The notes beneath the pieces were generated by a model. That model was not told the DNA's origin. It was given only the letters and a program-made list of their open reading frames with translations, and made no database searches. A stretch of DNA of 49,756 nucleotides from Candidatus Zixiibacteriota bacterium (GTDB lineage: Bacteria > Zixibacteria > MSB-5A5 > GN15 > PGXB01). The translations under genes and the position numbers were made by a program. The DNA lies in assembly GCA_900498245.1 (NCBI GenBank), contig LS998015.1, forward strand, positions 2,543,170-2,592,925, in the 5' to 3' direction. Below are positions 36,912 to 43,158 of this stretch, piece by piece; the stretch's first letter is position 1, and each line of letters opens with the position of its first letter.

Positions 36912-37985
36912 ATGAAATCAAAAGTAACGGCGTTAATCGGCATCATTTTTCTAAGCGCGGCCCTGCCGTCATTTGCAGGTATTTGCGGTGATGCCAACAA
37001 TAACGGGGCGGTCAATATTCTGGATGTCTCATATACAATCAATTTTCTATATAAAAGCGGCCCGGCGCCCGAGCCCCTTAAGATTGCCGATGTCAACAAC
37101 AGCAACACGGTCAATATCCTCGACGTTTCCTATCTGATTAATTCCATTTACAAGGGAGGCAAATCCCCTTATTGTTCAATCTATATAGGACAGGTCCCGC
37201 CCGACTCGATACCGCAAATCTTCGCTCCCGGATTTATCTCCACCGCCGATATGGAATTTACCGCCTCCTTTGATCCCACTTTGCAGGAATTCTATTTCAC
37301 GCGACGAGGAAGCGATAACATTAACAAAATCTATTACACAAAATTTCAGGACGGCTCCTGGACCAACCCCGCTATCGCTCCCTTCTGCGGTTCATACATG
37401 AACATGGAACCCCTTCTTTCCCCCGATGGGCAGAAACTGCTTTTTAGCAGTGACCGTCCCTGCTCCGGCTGTGGCATTGCCAACTGGTATGTAACAAAAT
37501 CCGGCGCGGACTGGTCGGATCCGCAGACGCAGGAAGCCCCGCTGAATAGTGTCTTCATGATGTATTCCACCCTGAGTTCCGAAGGCAATATATATTTCAC
37601 CAATATTATGGTGTCTCCCCCCGGCATTTATGTCTCGCGGGTGTTCGATGAAATGTATCAAACACCGGTGAAATTGAGTACTGCCATTAACAAAGGGTAC
37701 AACGAGGCTCATCCCTATATTGCCCCCGATGAAAGTTTCATGATATTCGATGCCCAAAACCGGCCGGGCGGCTTTGGCGGCTCCGATCTTTATATCAGTT
37801 ATCATAACGAGGACGGTTCCTGGACCGAGTCGGTGAATCTCGGCAATCTCATCAATACTATCGGCGAAGATCTCGCTCCGACCGTCTCTCCCGACGGCCT
37901 CTATTTCTTCTATGCCCGACCCAACGGCGCCAAGCATGACATATATTGGTGCAGTATCGCCTTCATCGATAAACTGCGCCCTTGA
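36912..37985 (+). CDS. Secreted PD40/TolB-like propeller with N-terminal dockerin repeats
   Basis: This 357-aa protein has a signal peptide (residues 1-22, MKSKVTALIGIIFLSAALPSFA). Two dockerin-type repeats come next at about 24-90 (GDANNNGAVNILDVSYTIN and VNNSNTVNILDVSYLINSIY). A beta-propeller of PD40/WD40-like repeats makes up the rest (LLSPDGQKLLFSSDRP, YIAPDESFMIFDAQN, TVSPDGLYFFYARP). Dockerins usually sit at the C-terminus, so the N-terminal position is unusual. An extracellular binding role is inferred. The RBS is weak. Confidence 0.85.
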   Translation: MKSKVTALIGIIFLSAALPSFAGICGDANNNGAVNILDVSYTINFLYKSGPAPEPLKIADVNNSNTVNILDVSYLINSIYKGGKSPYCSIYIGQVPPDSIPQIFAPGFISTADMEFTASFDPTLQEFYFTRRGSDNINKIYYTKFQDGSWTNPAIAPFCGSYMNMEPLLSPDGQKLLFSSDRPCSGCGIANWYVTKSGADWSDPQTQEAPLNSVFMMYSTLSSEGNIYFTNIMVSPPGIYVSRVFDEMYQTPVKLSTAINKGYNEAHPYIAPDESFMIFDAQNRPGGFGGSDLYISYHNEDGSWTESVNLGNLINTIGEDLAPTVSPDGLYFFYARPNGAKHDIYWCSIAFIDKLRP

Positions 37986-37989
37986 GTGC

Positions 37990-38039
37990 CACCCCCAAAC
38001 TGCGGGATGGGCGATGTGGCCTTTTGGGCTTTGGGGGTG
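37990..38039 (+). terminator. Long hairpin after the dockerin-propeller gene
   Basis: CACCCCCAAA at 37990-37999 pairs exactly with 38030-38039 around a 30-nt loop, starting 5 nt after the stop codon. It may terminate transcription and it also begins the hairpin zone. Confidence 0.5.
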
Positions 38040-38049
38040 CTTCCCGATG

Positions 38050-38067
38050 CCCACCGCAAGCGGTGGG
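38050..38067. repeat. Hairpin CCCACCGC-aa-GCGGTGGG
   Basis: A perfect 8-bp inverted repeat with a 2-nt loop. A sister with stem CCCACCCC lies at 40056-40073. Confidence 0.8.
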
Positions 38068-38101
38068 TTACCCATTTGACCCGGAATCTATTTCTTCGTA
38101 G

Positions 38102-38124
38102 GTCAAGCCTACTTGGGGCTTGAC
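38102..38124. repeat. Hairpin GTCAAGCC, copy 1
   Basis: An 8-bp perfect stem with a 7-nt loop inside a 45-bp repeat unit (38080-38124). Copy 2 is at 39563-39585. Confidence 0.85.
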
Positions 38125-38136
38125 TCTTTTTCATAG

Positions 38137-38159
38137 GTCGAAACCCTTGAGGTTTCGAC
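38137..38159. repeat. Hairpin GTCGAAACC, copy 1
   Basis: A 9-bp perfect stem with a 5-nt loop. Related copies lie at 38773-38796 (stem with a mismatch) and 39599-39621 (perfect). Confidence 0.85.
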
Positions 38160-38191
38160 ATCTTCCTGGTGTCAACGCTCTTTCAATGCGC

Positions 38192-38212
38192 CGTCAGGAG
38201 TCTCTCCTGACG
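38192..38212. repeat. Hairpin CGTCAGGAG-tct-CTCCTGACG
   Basis: A perfect 9-bp stem with a 3-nt loop. The words CGTCAGGA and TCCTGACGG also recur just downstream near 38224. Confidence 0.8.
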
Positions 38213-38341
38213 GAATATTTTAACGCCGTCAGGAACTCTTTCCCCACGGTCATGCTTGGCGGTCTTCGTGGGTCGGGTTCCGAATCCCGGCTCCCGCCGG
38301 AATGAGAAACCCGACATCTTTTAATTGTTCATTCTGTGCGC

Positions 38342-38360
38342 GGCAGATATCCTATCTGCC
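38342..38360. repeat. Hairpin GGCAGATA-tcc-TATCTGCC
   Basis: A perfect 8-bp stem with a 3-nt loop, followed by a REP-like segment (about 38380-38410) with the words CATTCCG and CCCGGAATCC. Confidence 0.8.
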
Positions 38361-38770
38361 CGAGGGCCCAATTCTCATAATTGCCATTCCGACCTTGACC
38401 CGGAATCCACTCTTCCTTGCAACCCTTTGCCCCGCATCATGCCAAATAAAACGAACCCGCTTAAATTCGCCGCAATGTCAATTCTGGCAACAACATACAA
38501 ATCGGTGGGTTCGTTATTTGAAATTTTTCGATATCCCGATTGTCCGCCCGATAACACCCTCAACATCTTTCCGCCGTTGCCCTTGCGGACATGCGAAAGA
38601 TACAAGACGATTCGGTTTGAACCTGAATACAAAGCGGTTTTCCTTTCGGCGCGCGGTCCTTATCATAAATATATATCTCCTCCCTATATATGGCCCCGCC
38701 GACCGGATCACATCAAATTGGTATGATAATTGTATGTCGCCATCCGCATCCCGGCCTTCGCCGGCCAGTG

Positions 38771-38854
38771 TAGGTCGAAATCCTTGAGGTTTCCACATCT
38801 TCCTAGTATCAACGCTCTTGGTACTGTGCTAGAAATTATAATTGAACGGATCAG
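38771..38854. repeat. 84-bp direct repeat, copy A
   Basis: It begins TAGGTCGAAA and ends ATTGAACGGATCAG. It aligns without gaps to 39596-39679. It lies about 95 bp before the AT-rich orphan gene's 3' end, while copy B lies about 75 bp beyond its 5' end. Confidence 0.85.
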
Positions 38855-38948
38855 CCCAATTATTAATCCCCACCCGTTGGATGGGTTACCGGGTTTCAAA
38901 TTGCTGCCATTCTTATCTAATGCTTCGTTGCCTGGTAAATAGCGAAAG

Positions 38949-39521
38949 TCACCGGGAAATATCGAGCTTCATTTTTTCGAATCGAAAGAGTGTAAAATTG
39001 ATTTCCTTTCTTTCAACAATGGTATTATTTATTCTCTTTAATAATTGAATAGAATAACTTACTCTAATACTGTCATTCTGATCGGGAATTCTTATTGCTT
39101 TCCAAGCAATCTGCTTGCCATACAATGTCTTTCCGTTCAACCACGGGCCTTGCCGCCAGCCCTCCGCGAGACAGAAACTGCTATCCGAAATCATTTCTAT
39201 ACAGAGAGAATCAATTTGAATATTTTTTATTGAATCCATCATCATTGTATCACTAATCTTATTCGAATAGATAGCTTCTAAGAAAAATCCATATATATCA
39301 TGTCCAGATTTATTATCTGTGCCACCAGCCGAAATATTCAAACGAATCTCATATCCTCCGAATGATATTGTTGGCGTTTGTTCATCCTGAGTGAGATAAT
39401 AATTCTGTTTAACAAGTAAGGGAGCGCAGACAATTGAAAATAGAATTATGAAAGGAATGCCTGTAGTCAAATAAGTCATTCTCAATGTTATTCTATTAAT
39501 ATGCATAATTGTCATCATCAT
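38949..39521 (-). CDS. AT-rich orphan gene, membrane or exported protein
   Basis: This 190-aa protein has one N-terminal hydrophobic segment (TTGIPFIILFSIVCAPLLV) and a mostly beta-strand-like remainder with Cys pairs. No family recognised. Base composition is strikingly AT-rich compared with flanking genes, and codons are of A/T-ending type, suggesting foreign origin. No convincing RBS precedes the ATG at 39521 or the inner ATG at 39506. It sits between two 84-bp direct repeats. Length and sensible composition favour a real gene, possibly decayed. Confidence 0.55.
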   Translation of the reverse strand: MMMTIMHINRITLRMTYLTTGIPFIILFSIVCAPLLVKQNYYLTQDEQTPTISFGGYEIRLNISAGGTDNKSGHDIYGFFLEAIYSNKISDTMMMDSIKNIQIDSLCIEMISDSSFCLAEGWRQGPWLNGKTLYGKQIAWKAIRIPDQNDSIRVSYSIQLLKRINNTIVERKEINFTLFRFEKMKLDISR

Positions 39522-39540
39522 ATTGTCATTCCGACCCCGG

Positions 39541-39585
39541 CCCGGAATCCATTTCTTCGTAGGTCAAGCCTACTTGGGGCTTGAC
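39541..39585. repeat. 45-bp repeat unit with GTCAAGCC hairpin, copy 2
   Basis: It differs from 38080-38124 at one base by eye and contains the perfect 8-bp hairpin 39563-39570/39578-39585. Confidence 0.85.
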
Positions 39586-39595
39586 ACCTTCTTCG

Positions 39596-39679
39596 TAGGT
39601 CGAAACCCTTGCGGTTTCGACATCTTCCTTGCGTCAATGCTCTTCGCACTGTGCAAGATATTATAATTGAACGGATCAG
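39596..39679. repeat. 84-bp direct repeat, copy B
   Basis: Same orientation and length as 38771-38854. It contains the perfect 9-bp hairpin GTCGAAACC (39599-39607 with 39613-39621). Confidence 0.85.
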
Positions 39680-39687
39680 TACGCGTA

Positions 39688-39739
39688 GGTCAAGACCTCG
39701 ATTGGTACGGAAGGGACGGCGTGCGGCGGCGGTCTTGAC
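39688..39739. repeat. Hairpin GGTCAAGACC with enlarged loop
   Basis: GGTCAAGACC at 39688-39697 pairs with GGTCTTGAC at 39731-39739 around a loop of more than 30 nt. It has the same GTAGGTC lead-in as the other units. Confidence 0.7.
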
Positions 39740-40055
39740 ATCTTTATATTTCATTCTTCAATGCCCATTTATTAACCTAAATCCAATTTCTCCGAAATAT
39801 GCGTATGATGCCATAATCCCTGATGATACAACCAATATAGCACCATTCAACCAGGTTCCAAGTATAAAATTGCCTTTTATATCACTTATTTCACCCCATC
39901 AATATACTTTGCTTCACTGTCAGATCCTATCAGTTTGACTTTGGATTTTTTGAAAGGATCTCAAGACCCCCCATCTGCACCACACCCATCCCCCAAGGGG
40001 TCATTGACCTACAGGAAAGAAGATGTCGGGTTTCTCATCCGTCAAATCCGGGTAA

Positions 40056-40073
40056 CCCACCCCTTGGGGTGGG
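40056..40073. repeat. Hairpin CCCACCCC-tt-GGGGTGGG
   Basis: A perfect 8-bp stem with a 2-nt loop, sister of the one at 38050. Confidence 0.8.
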
Positions 40074-40110
40074 CAATCATAATTTCCTAAAGCCGATAAC
40101 AATCAACGGT

Positions 40111-40134
40111 AGGACAAGCATTCCTGCTTGTCCT
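40111..40134. repeat. Hairpin AGGACAAGCA-ttcc-TGCTTGTCCT
   Basis: A perfect 10-bp stem with a 4-nt loop, preceded by the same GT lead-in as the GTAGGTC units. Confidence 0.85.
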
Positions 40135-40153
40135 TACGACCGATTCTTAAGTT

Positions 40154-40199
40154 GCGCGGGGTCTTGCCGAGGATTCTTGTCCGAGGTGTGACCCCGCGC
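40154..40199. repeat. Hairpin GCGCGGGGTC with 26-nt loop
   Basis: The 10-bp arms at 40154-40163 and 40190-40199 are exact complements. From here to the ArsR gene (40200-40778) no gene is supported; further GC-rich hairpins occur near 40660-40682 and 40739-40753. Confidence 0.75.
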
Positions 40200-40778
40200 C
40201 GTACGCACGGTGCAAAATCGGTATCAATTTGGTGTGACTCGGTGCGGGGGGCCAATAGGTACAGTGAGGTCCATAAATATGTCCGTATATTATCAAAAGC
40301 CGATCGGTCATTGCGCCCGCCAATTAGCGCCTGAATATACACCGAAATATTCCCGTAATCTCAAACTCCGCAACCGCTTGACAGAAAAGACACCAAAAAT
40401 GGGGCCCCCTTTTGTATCAGAAGAGCGAACCCAAATCTCCCCCATCCCCATACCGGCCATCCCGTTACCCCAAAAATCAGCCGGCTTCGTTTCGTTTCAC
40501 ATTTTGCGGGACAAGAAGTTGCGCAGGCATATTTTCGTCATTTTGGATTCCGGGTCAAGCCCGGAGTGCCCCTGCCAGAGAGGGCGCGCGGATTGAAATT
40601 TTATTGCGGGGGTATGAGAATTGCATATATTTGAAACGGCCCGTCCTGACAGAAAATAAAGTGGGGCCCCGCAAGGGACCCCGGTGAATTATCGTCGGAT
40701 GGGCCTTTTATTGTCCTGCCCGGGACAACCTTCGGGCGCCATTGCAGCAATGGGCCGTCCGCGGAACTCTAAAGCGTC

Positions 40779-41198
40779 TCATTTTTTGACTCCTTTCTTG
40801 GGTTTTTTATGAGGCAAATGGCCGCCCGGACTGGATTTTTGGCCCGGGCCGCTTTTTTTCTTTTTTACGACAATTTCGCAGACCGCCCCGGCTCCTTTGG
40901 CTTTCAGGTCGATGCCGCAGCAGGGGAAACAGGCGACCATGCTGACACAGGTCGAGCGCAGGCTCTCGGTATTGAGTTCATAGCAGACATGCTGTCCTTT
41001 CCGGGTACGGCGCACCAGCCCGGCCGCCATCAGGGTCTGCAGATGCCGGGTGATGGTCGGCTGGGAGAGATTGAAAAAGGAGACGATCTCCCCGACGGTC
41101 CGGCCTTTGGACTCGAGCATCAAAAGAATCTTGAGCCGGGTGGTGTCGGCCATGGCCCGGAGGACGGGCGGAAGCGTTATGTCGTTCTTTTCTTTCAT
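40779..41198 (-). CDS. ArsR/SmtB-family metal-type repressor with Cys-rich C-terminus
   Basis: This 139-aa protein starts at the ATG at 41198. It has the ArsR winged helix: RAMADTTRLKILLMLESKGRTVGEIV, recognition helix LSQPTITRHLQTLMAAGLVRR, and wing RRTRKGQHVCYEL. After the DNA-binding domain lies a cysteine cluster (C84, C90, C93, C94, C107) and a very basic Lys/Pro tail (KKKK ... KKPKKGVKK). The Cys cluster could sense metal or redox state. A longer start at 41252 is rejected because those codons cover the promoter and operator. It is divergent from the KamA-like gene. Confidence 0.88.
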   Translation of the reverse strand: MKEKNDITLPPVLRAMADTTRLKILLMLESKGRTVGEIVSFFNLSQPTITRHLQTLMAAGLVRRTRKGQHVCYELNTESLRSTCVSMVACFPCCGIDLKAKGAGAVCEIVVKKKKSGPGQKSSPGGHLPHKKPKKGVKK

Positions 41199-41208
41199 AG
41201 CTTTATAG

Positions 41209-41226
41209 ACATATACGCATATATGT
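41209..41226. promoter_or_regulatory. Operator palindrome at the arsR promoter
   Basis: ACATATACG and CATATATGT form an 18-bp palindrome with one mismatch, just downstream of and touching the -10 of the ArsR gene. This is a classic place for autorepression. Confidence 0.65.
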
Positions 41227-41252
41227 ATATATTGGTTTCGCCCCTTTGTCAA
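41224..41252 (-). promoter_or_regulatory. arsR promoter
   Basis: On the minus strand TTGACA (41252-41247), a 17-bp spacer and TATACA (41229-41224) lie 25 bp before the ATG at 41198. Confidence 0.7.
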
Positions 41253-41358: not shown

Positions 41359-43158
41359 ATGAATTACAACCCCGAAAAATATACGGCCATGTCACTGCGG
41401 GAGAACTGCTTCGAAGTTTTCGAAATCGCCCGAGAATCATCATCGGTCGAGGACTTGCGCCGCCAGCTCACGCAGCTTTCCCATAACGCCGAGTTTCGGG
41501 TCCAGGACGATTTCGAGTATTACACCGAAGGTTCCATAATCCGGGTGCGGGATTGTGCGCGGACGTTGTTTCGGCTTATGACCCGCCGCTCCGATCATCT
41601 GGCGAAATTTTCGGTCGTGCAGGCGATATGGGATATCTCGCGGGATATTCCCCGCCCCGACTTAACCCCGGCGTTTTATGCCGAACTGCAGCATGTTCTG
41701 CTGGGGCTCCAGGGTAAGGGGCCGGAGAAGTCGCCGGCCGATGTGTATCTGGCGCCGAGCGATTTGCAGGGGCGGGAAGCGGCGGTCGAACGTTCGGGCC
41801 AGTTGGACGTTCTGTCCGGCGAAATGCAGAAGCGGATGGACCGCTTTGTATCCGGCCTCGATGAGAGTGCGATCGCCATCCGCAAGACGCGCCGTGATGC
41901 GATTATCAAGGTCTTCGGAGTCACGGAAAAGGAGTGGTACGATTGGCAGTGGCAGGTGATAAATATCGTGAAAGATCCGGAGCGGATGGCCACACTGGTC
42001 GGATTGAGCGAATCCGAAGCGCAGGCGATTACGGCGGCCCGAGCGGAACATCTGCCGTTTGCGGTGACGCCTTATTATCTATCTCTGATGGACGAGCAAC
42101 CGGATCTGGGGAGCGATCGGGCGGTCCGGGCGCAGGTCTTTCCCCCTCTGAATTATGTCGCGGAAATGAATCGCTATGCCGGCGAAGATCTGGCCTGTCT
42201 CGATTTCATGAAAGAGAGCGACACCTCGCCGGTAGATTTAATTACCCGGCGCTATCCAGCCATCTGCATTTTCAAGCCGTTCAACACTTGCCCGCAGATT
42301 TGTGTTTACTGCCAGCGCAACTGGGAAATTGAAGATGCCATGGAAGCTGATGCTTTCGCATCGGAATCGGACATTGAAATAGCCGCCCGCTGGATCGAAG
42401 ATCATCCGGCGATTCACGAAGTCTTAATTACCGGCGGCGATCCCCTGGCCCTGGACGACAGACAATTGGAACAGATTCTGGAACGTCTCTTTTACATTCA
42501 GAATATCGAAAGAATCAGAATCGGCTCCCGGGTCCCGATTACGATGCCGATGCGGATCACGGAAAATCTGGCCGATCTTCTGGCGCGGTACCGGATTCCG
42601 GGCCGGCGGCAAGTGGCAGTTGTCACGCATGCCCAGCATCCGTACGAATTGACACCGGATACGGCCCTGGCGGTAGAGAGACTCAGTACCCGCGGCATCC
42701 CGGTTTATAATCAGCTGGTTTATACATTCTACATTTCGCGCCGTTTCGAGGCGGCGCAGTTGCGCCGGACTCTGGCCCTTCTGGGGATCGAGCCGTACTA
42801 TACGTTCAATACCAAAGGCAAAGAAGAAACCACCGATTATCGTGTTCCTCTGGCGCGGCTTCTGCAGGAGCAAAAAGAAGAGGCGCGGCTTCTTCCCGGC
42901 CTGACCCGCACCGATGAGGCCGTTTATAATGTTCCCGGGCTGGGGAAAAACTACTTGAGGGCCCGCCAGCACCGCGATTTAATATCGATCCTCCCCAATG
43001 GGGCGCGACTATACGAATTTCATCCCTGGGAAAAGAATATTTCGAGCCGAATGTCGACCTATGTCGGAGAAGATATCCCGATCCTGGACTATTTGCACCG
43101 TCTCGATCAGGTCGGTGAGGATGTTTCCGAATACGAGACAATCTGGTACTATTATTGA
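41359..43158 (+). CDS. KamA-family radical SAM protein, long form
   Basis: This 599-aa protein is related to lysine 2,3-aminomutase. The radical SAM cluster Cys are C311, C315 and C318 (CPQICVYC), and VLITGGDPLALDD matches the SAM-binding GGDP motif. The aminomutase lead-in EWYDWQWQ occurs near residue 195. The PLP-lysine region reads VPGLGKNYL instead of PGGGGK, keeping the Lys. Where lysine aminomutases have YYLYQCDL it reads PYYTFNTKG, and GI.HFRT is not seen, so the substrate is probably not lysine. About 190 extra N-terminal residues are unlike the short enzymes (about 340-420 aa). The ArsR repressor is divergent. Confidence 0.85.
   Translation: MNYNPEKYTAMSLRENCFEVFEIARESSSVEDLRRQLTQLSHNAEFRVQDDFEYYTEGSIIRVRDCARTLFRLMTRRSDHLAKFSVVQAIWDISRDIPRPDLTPAFYAELQHVLLGLQGKGPEKSPADVYLAPSDLQGREAAVERSGQLDVLSGEMQKRMDRFVSGLDESAIAIRKTRRDAIIKVFGVTEKEWYDWQWQVINIVKDPERMATLVGLSESEAQAITAARAEHLPFAVTPYYLSLMDEQPDLGSDRAVRAQVFPPLNYVAEMNRYAGEDLACLDFMKESDTSPVDLITRRYPAICIFKPFNTCPQICVYCQRNWEIEDAMEADAFASESDIEIAARWIEDHPAIHEVLITGGDPLALDDRQLEQILERLFYIQNIERIRIGSRVPITMPMRITENLADLLARYRIPGRRQVAVVTHAQHPYELTPDTALAVERLSTRGIPVYNQLVYTFYISRRFEAAQLRRTLALLGIEPYYTFNTKGKEETTDYRVPLARLLQEQKEEARLLPGLTRTDEAVYNVPGLGKNYLRARQHRDLISILPNGARLYEFHPWEKNISSRMSTYVGEDIPILDYLHRLDQVGEDVSEYETIWYYY

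Follow-up and report, generated by a model that had tools for sequence, protein, structure and literature searches.

Hairpins between two convergent genes of a Zixibacteria chromosome are very probably a mosaic of REPs from several RAYT lineages

What are the hairpins that crowd the space between a dockerin/PD40 gene and an ArsR-type regulator gene in a Candidatus Zixibacteriota bacterium, and how did they get there? The genome is a single contig of 3,508,505 bases, and the window (the whole stretch of DNA that we analysed, 49,756 nt) covers positions 2543170-2592925. Within the window, the locus comprises:

36912-37985, + strand: dockerin/PD40 gene, the left neighbour of the zone
37986-40778: hairpin zone, intergenic, with the hairpins concentrated at 37990-40200
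40779-41252, - strand: ArsR-type regulator gene, the right neighbour of the zone

The two genes are convergent, with the zone between them. The first-pass annotation had reported at least a dozen inverted repeats here, and we found about 14 non-random hairpins, counting tagged and untagged classes together. Unit by unit, the zone contains:

37986-38045, + strand: R7-class hairpin, GTGCCACCCCCAAA(...)TTTGGGGGTG, with a perfect 10-bp stem; identical words bracket RAYT R7 (3077677-3078318)
38048-38073, + strand: R11-class hairpin, GCCCACCG-caag-CGGTGGGTTACCC; identical words bracket RAYT R11
38098-38124, + strand: REP class A with intact GTAG, GTAG GTCAAGCC(tacttgg)GGCTTGAC
38133-38170, + strand: REP class B with decayed tag ATAG, GTCGAAACC(cttga)GGTTTCGAC followed by ATCTTCCT
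38189-38236, + strand: CCGTCAGG-type hairpins, an R8-like flank class; identical words flank RAYT R8 and also occur upstream of R1
38268-38320, + strand: REP class D, a two-tier hairpin with tag GTGG, GTCGGGTT(ccgaatcccggctcccgccggaatgaga)AACCCGAC ATCTT
38336-38363, + strand: hairpin GTGCGCGGCAGATA-tcc-TATCTGCCCGA, of the class that brackets R1, R3, R5, R6, and R9
38770-38804, + strand: REP class B with GTAG tag and imperfect stem, GTAG GTCGAAATC-cttga-GGTTTCCAC, with two poorly pairing positions and the end CACATCTTCCT
39559-39585, + strand: REP class A, intact, the same unit sequence as at 38098
39595-39629, + strand: REP class B, intact, GTAG GTCGAAACC-cttgc-GGTTTCGAC, with the end GACATCTTCCT
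39685-39747, + strand: REP class H, GTAG GTCAAGACC(...33 nt...)GGTCTTGAC ATCTTT
40000-40038, - strand: truncated REP pieces, GTAGGTCAATGACC and AAGATGTCGGGTTTCTCAT, the latter half of class D; inverted matches
40050-40075, - strand: R11-class hairpin, GGGTAACCCACCC-cttg-GGGTGGGCA
40109-40134, + strand: REP class E, GTAG GACAAGCA(ttcc)TGCTTGTC; RAYT R4 lies between a pair of close variants

In six of these units an intact 5' GTAG immediately precedes the stem (38098, 38770, 39559, 39595, 39685, and 40109), in two the tag is decayed (38133, ATAG; 38268, GTGG), and the hairpins at 37986, 38048, 38189, 38336, and 40050 are untagged and belong to other families. Among the tagged units, the stem word varies while GTC...GAC-ATCTT is constant, and three units terminate in GACATCTTCCT or CACATCTTCCT, the unit ends that had been annotated. 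The units with an intact tag all lie on the + strand, and neighbours among them differ in class. The AT-rich perfect stems at 38669, 38838, 39029, 39399, and 39860 look like chance. An Rfam scan of the window gave no match at the gathering score. We also considered CATTCCG...CCGGAATCCA as the frame of a repeat family, but with up to 3 mismatches it has just two copies genome-wide, both in the zone, so it is not a family here.

The first-pass annotation held that no standard feature type explains this pattern. In fact, a 5' GTAG tetranucleotide followed by a palindrome whose stem word differs by class is what defines the GTAG REPs (PMC3733652, PMC2817692).

Three other features of the zone deserve mention. 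A likely real AT-rich gene (38949-39521, - strand, 190 amino acids) lies between near-identical 85-nt REP composites (38770-38854 and 39595-39679); it has no Pfam match, has two distant paralogs in the genome (25-27% identity), and is absent from the syntenic site in the sister species described below. A strong 10-bp hairpin at 40154-40199, GCGCGGGGTC(26 nt)GACCCCGCGC, lacks the GTAG tag and was matched to no class. Finally, an inverted element that is not a GTAG REP, GGCCCCGCCGACC..GATCACA..AAATGGTATC, is found at 38692-38730 and 40210-40253, and also upstream of RAYT R1 (2287584) and at 2727019.

The frame with a changing stem word is not confined to the zone. The pattern GTAGGTC-N-GACATC (GTAGGTCN{12,42}GACATC) has 58 matches in the genome, compared to 1 for a reversed-pattern control, and 51 of the 58 have a perfect stem of at least 6 bp. 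About 56 of the matches are real hairpins, two look like chance, and one further match is badly decayed. The frame is also dispersed in 29 of 30 relatives, so the units are not a local accident. Apart from these pattern searches, our counts come from genome stretches totalling 429 kb. In this sample, which is enriched for REP loci, 11.3% of the occurrences of GTAG are directly followed by a perfect stem of at least 7 bp, a higher rate than for any other of the 256 tetranucleotides (median 0.55%). In an unselected, evenly spaced 240 kb, we found 12 GTAG hairpins, of which 10 were clear REPs; extrapolating from this sample gives about 150 GTAG REPs per genome. Only 13 of 111 REP midpoints fall inside open reading frames of at least 200 amino acids, which make up 70% of the bases. 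As expected for GTAG REPs, these are palindromes of 20-50 nt after an unpaired GTAG, with high copy number and a mainly intergenic location.

The orientation of the frame across the genome is uneven (44 minus and 14 plus, or roughly 22 to 12 if clusters are counted by eye). We dropped the idea of a replication-strand bias because GC skew, as sampled in 20 stretches, did not divide the signs.

The stems are conserved as structures. Across 17 distinct units of 30 nt, drawn from this genome and its relatives, 98.7% of stem cells are paired, and double changes occur in 29 cells, at 5 of the 9 pairs (9.1 ± 3.6 in shuffles). Sliding the partner by 1-3 positions lowers pairing to 20-52%. The stems are under structural constraint, and their changes are compensatory. 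The closing GTC/GAC is invariant, but it was built into the search pattern, so it is not independent evidence.

The 3' side of the units is conserved as well. Enzymes of the TnpA-REP type cleave C|T next to the hairpin and are probably guided by GTAG (PMC8266576). Among 75 GTC-type units, 70 have A and 42 have CT at +3/+4 after the stem (background 4.5%). T is the next base after ATC in 39 of 49 ATC units; some units were collected via GACATC, but the T at +4 lies outside every search pattern. CT is weakly enriched upstream (12/75 at -3). On sequence alone, then, a CT cleavage site is apparent on the 3' side and weakly so on the 5' side. Furthermore, adjoining units of differing class stand head-to-tail with pyrimidine spacers (atcttcttc, accttcttc) at 894 kb, at 1331 kb, and in the zone, where the class B unit at 39595 follows the class A unit at 39559 after accttcttc. 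Such an arrangement would arise if incoming units were joined to the CT next to a unit already in place.

If these are REPs, which enzymes would move them? We found no RAYT gene within the window (best E 0.11), but the genome encodes 11 PF01797 (Y1_Tnp)/RAYT genes, which we call R1 to R11. The HUH motif is visible in the translations, and 10 of the 11 also have a clear YIHxNP-type tyrosine motif; R4 reads YMLLNS at the tyrosine motif. All eight RAYTs that we tested (R1, R2, R3, R4, R7, R8, R10, and R11) pass the cut-off of NCBIfam NF047646 (REP_Tyr_transpos), and none of the eight pass the IS200/IS605 cut-off. R2 matches the structure of E. coli TnpA-REP in complex with REP DNA (4ER8) at 2.8e-22 over R2 residues 3-157, and its nearest named relatives are proteins from Candidatus Zixibacteria (77, 60, and 55% identity). 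A tree of the 11 RAYTs has two deep groups, R2/R10/R4/R7/R11 and R1/R3/R5/R6/R8/R9; long branches make the finer joins unsafe.

All 11 RAYTs are bracketed by a matched hairpin pair within about 300 bp (local scores of 13-45). Just 13 of 438 control open reading frames score 14 or above, and the strongest of these lie inside REP zones. The flanking classes are of the GTAG REP type at R2 (class C), R10 (class D), and R4 (class E). Hairpins of the form GTGCGCGGCAGA..TCTGCCCG, which are also dispersed in the genome, bracket R1, R3, R5, R6, and R9; GTGCCACCCCCAAA..TTTGGGGGTG brackets R7, CCGTCAGG..CCTGACGG brackets R8, and GCCCACC..GGTGGGTTACCC brackets R11. The zone carries copies of classes D and E, of the hairpins of R1/R3/R5/R6/R9, R7, R8, and R11, and of classes A, B, and H. 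Almost all of its hairpins match some class that brackets a RAYT. These results strongly support the suggestion in the first-pass annotation that the units are REP-like and mobile, with a Y1 transposase. Small transposase genes elsewhere in the chromosome probably copy the zone's hairpin repeats around.

R11 and its hairpins (3101.4-3102.2 kb; L079 1160-1920) are located at the end (3') of a gene, the final ~39 nt of which recur downstream of R11, as if the RAYT and its hairpins had been inserted with a long duplication.

Homologs in related genomes link the GTAGGTC frame to the R2 type. Hairpins with GTAG GTC/GGC lie within 150 bp of 10 of the 12 R2-type RAYT loci that we examined in relatives, on one or both sides, and a second set of R2-type relatives (L157-L165, L167, and L168) has them as well; our scan did not find a GTAG hairpin at L139 or L166. 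The GTAG GTC/GGC frame was absent at the R1-, R3-, R5-, and R11-type RAYTs that we examined in relatives. The stem words at R2-type RAYTs in relatives are B (L146, L160), B' (L136, L142, L162), C (L141, L157), D (L163, L164, L167), and H-like (L134), so the GTAGGTC/GTAGGGC hairpins of other Zixibacteria include several of the zone's words. Outside of Zixibacteria, R2-type relatives have GTAG with other stems (such as GGTGGGC or GATGGGT). Because the frame is found near R2-type RAYTs and not near the other types, it belongs to one RAYT lineage, along which the word shifts.

In this genome, R2 and R10 are the only R2-type RAYTs, and no cognate of this type lies next to units of class A, B, or H. 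These classes are therefore probably leftovers of RAYTs that were lost or replaced, as Nunvar et al. proposed for REP classes without an enzyme in Pseudomonas (PMC3686654). The assignment of B and H to RAYTs rests on relatives (B, B', and H-like), and that of A on similarity. Class A has eight exact 5' halves genome-wide and occurs near R1, yet outside of R1's own hairpins.

Comparison with a congeneric species (G001, contig 267) suggests how such a zone changes. The flanking genes are 82-84% identical, but the class H unit (39685) is the sole part of the zone that aligns. The zone of the sister species has other units (GTCCGAACC, B', CCGTCAGG, and GGCAGAC), along with a truncated R2-type RAYT (residues 96-168, 58% identity); the 3' end of this remnant lies immediately next to the class H unit. 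The zone was thus rebuilt after the species split, and the remnant shows that an R2-type RAYT was once present at this site in at least one lineage. Beyond the zone, a radical SAM gene (41359-43158, + strand) is missing from the sister species, where the ArsR gene directly adjoins an S46 peptidase gene.

We propose, with a probability of about 0.93, that the zone is a mosaic of non-autonomous REPs that trace to several RAYT lineages, not all of which survive, and that were dispersed by single-strand cleavage at CT sites. Each class would be the present or past substrate of one lineage of Y1/HUH RAYT (TnpA-REP). The enzyme would bind the folded single strand and cut C|T beside the hairpin via a 5'-phosphotyrosine link, and the cut unit would be joined to another CT site. 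GTAG, the stem foot, and the CT of the 3' ATCTT would have been retained because the enzyme reads and cuts there, while the middle of the stem would drift by compensatory change and come to differ between RAYT lineages. Insertion beside an existing REP would give head-to-tail, pyrimidine-spaced arrays of mixed class, such as the A-B pair. We infer cleavage, transfer, and current activity from what is known of such enzymes in other organisms, and mobility, too, is deduced; we saw no pair of strains with and without a unit at an otherwise identical site.

Alternatively, the hairpins might be kept mainly as RNA devices, that is, as terminators or 3' stabilisers for the dockerin/PD40 and ArsR genes, with mobility accounting only for their origin. 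REPs of other bacteria can act in this way (PMC3733652), the zone lies between convergent genes, and most REPs are outside of long open reading frames (13/111 inside). However, the sister species retains both genes although its zone has turned over, which implies that no particular hairpin is needed. Also, in a rough tally based on open reading frames, similar numbers of REPs lie between divergent genes (18) and between convergent genes (11), and a terminator requires neither the 5' GTAG nor the 3' ATCTT. We consider this explanation to be unlikely.

Could the units instead be a single MITE-like family whose parent is a classical insertion sequence, one that has terminal inverted repeats and duplicates its target? 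The inverted hairpins that bracket R1, R3, R5, R6, and R9 do resemble terminal inverted repeats. But the GTAG units are single asymmetric hairpins rather than paired termini, their stem words differ by class, and the matching enzymes score well over the RAYT cut-off and under that for IS200/IS605, which makes a MITE-like origin highly improbable. Short inverted repeats are common, and a handful of AT-rich stems here probably arose by chance, but chance or an assembly artefact has a negligible probability for the zone as a whole given the 58 matches against 1 in the control, the compensatory changes in the stems, and the presence of the frame in independently assembled relatives.

A mosaic of REPs, then, can be compared to known systems. 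Like the GTAG REPs described by Di Nocera et al. 2013 (PMC3733652) and Nunvar et al. 2010 (PMC2817692), our units have a 5' GTAG, a 7-10 bp palindrome, and a short variable loop; they are extragenic, with many classes per genome, and a class-specific RAYT is found nearby (C with R2, D with R10, and E with R4 in this genome; B, B', C, D, and H-like in relatives). In contrast to those REPs, most classes here share the GTC/GAC foot and the 3' ATCTT, the loop of classes C and D encloses another variable hairpin, and adjacent units are head-to-tail, not inverted. Zixibacteria are also outside the phyla of that survey (Proteobacteria, Cyanobacteria, Chloroflexi, and PVC). The RAYTs share with TnpA-REP of E. 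coli (PDB 4ER8; PMC8266576) the HUH motif, the single catalytic tyrosine in YIHxNP, and REPs on both sides of the gene, but this genome has 11 diverged copies, several of which are flanked by hairpins without GTAG. Judged by motifs alone, R1, R3, R5, R6, and R9, which lie between inverted non-GTAG hairpins, resemble the TIRtrons/TIRYT (PMC3733652) or TnpA-Y1 subclass 2.6, with its atypical hairpins (PMC6006769). REPINs and BIMEs also consist of clustered REPs, but the tagged units of the zone are co-oriented and of differing classes, so the zone is not a REPIN. True inverted pairs of another class, GTAGGGGTCGAC..GTCGACCC-gggaaaa-GGGCGGAC..GTCCGCCCCTAC, which are REPIN-like, do occur elsewhere in the genome, at 1116.36-1116.70 kb (1116363) and 2289.91-2289.96 kb (2289914).

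That each RAYT lineage has one stem word is known behaviour (PMC3686654, PMC6006769). More speculatively, R2-type RAYTs in Zixibacteria might share a fixed frame (GTAG, the GTC/GAC foot, and ATC|TT) with a free inner stem, so that one enzyme lineage could serve or swap many classes and old zones would record the gain and loss of RAYTs; we regard this idea as tentative and somewhat doubtful.

We found no paper on REPs or RAYTs of Zixibacteria in the open literature, and this absence is not proof; as far as that literature shows, the REP mosaic is new for this phylum and ordinary in kind. The zone alone does not change the understanding of REPs: it is selfish DNA of a familiar kind, in a phylum that has received little study. 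It does add a phylum that is rich in REPs and RAYTs to their known range: a single 3.5-Mb chromosome contains 11 RAYTs and about 10 hairpin classes, and relatives have additional sets. This natural series of stem words, set against closely related RAYTs, would make it possible to test which portion of the hairpin is recognised by the enzyme, and whether classes that now lack an enzyme were left behind by RAYTs that have been lost (compare PMC3686654).
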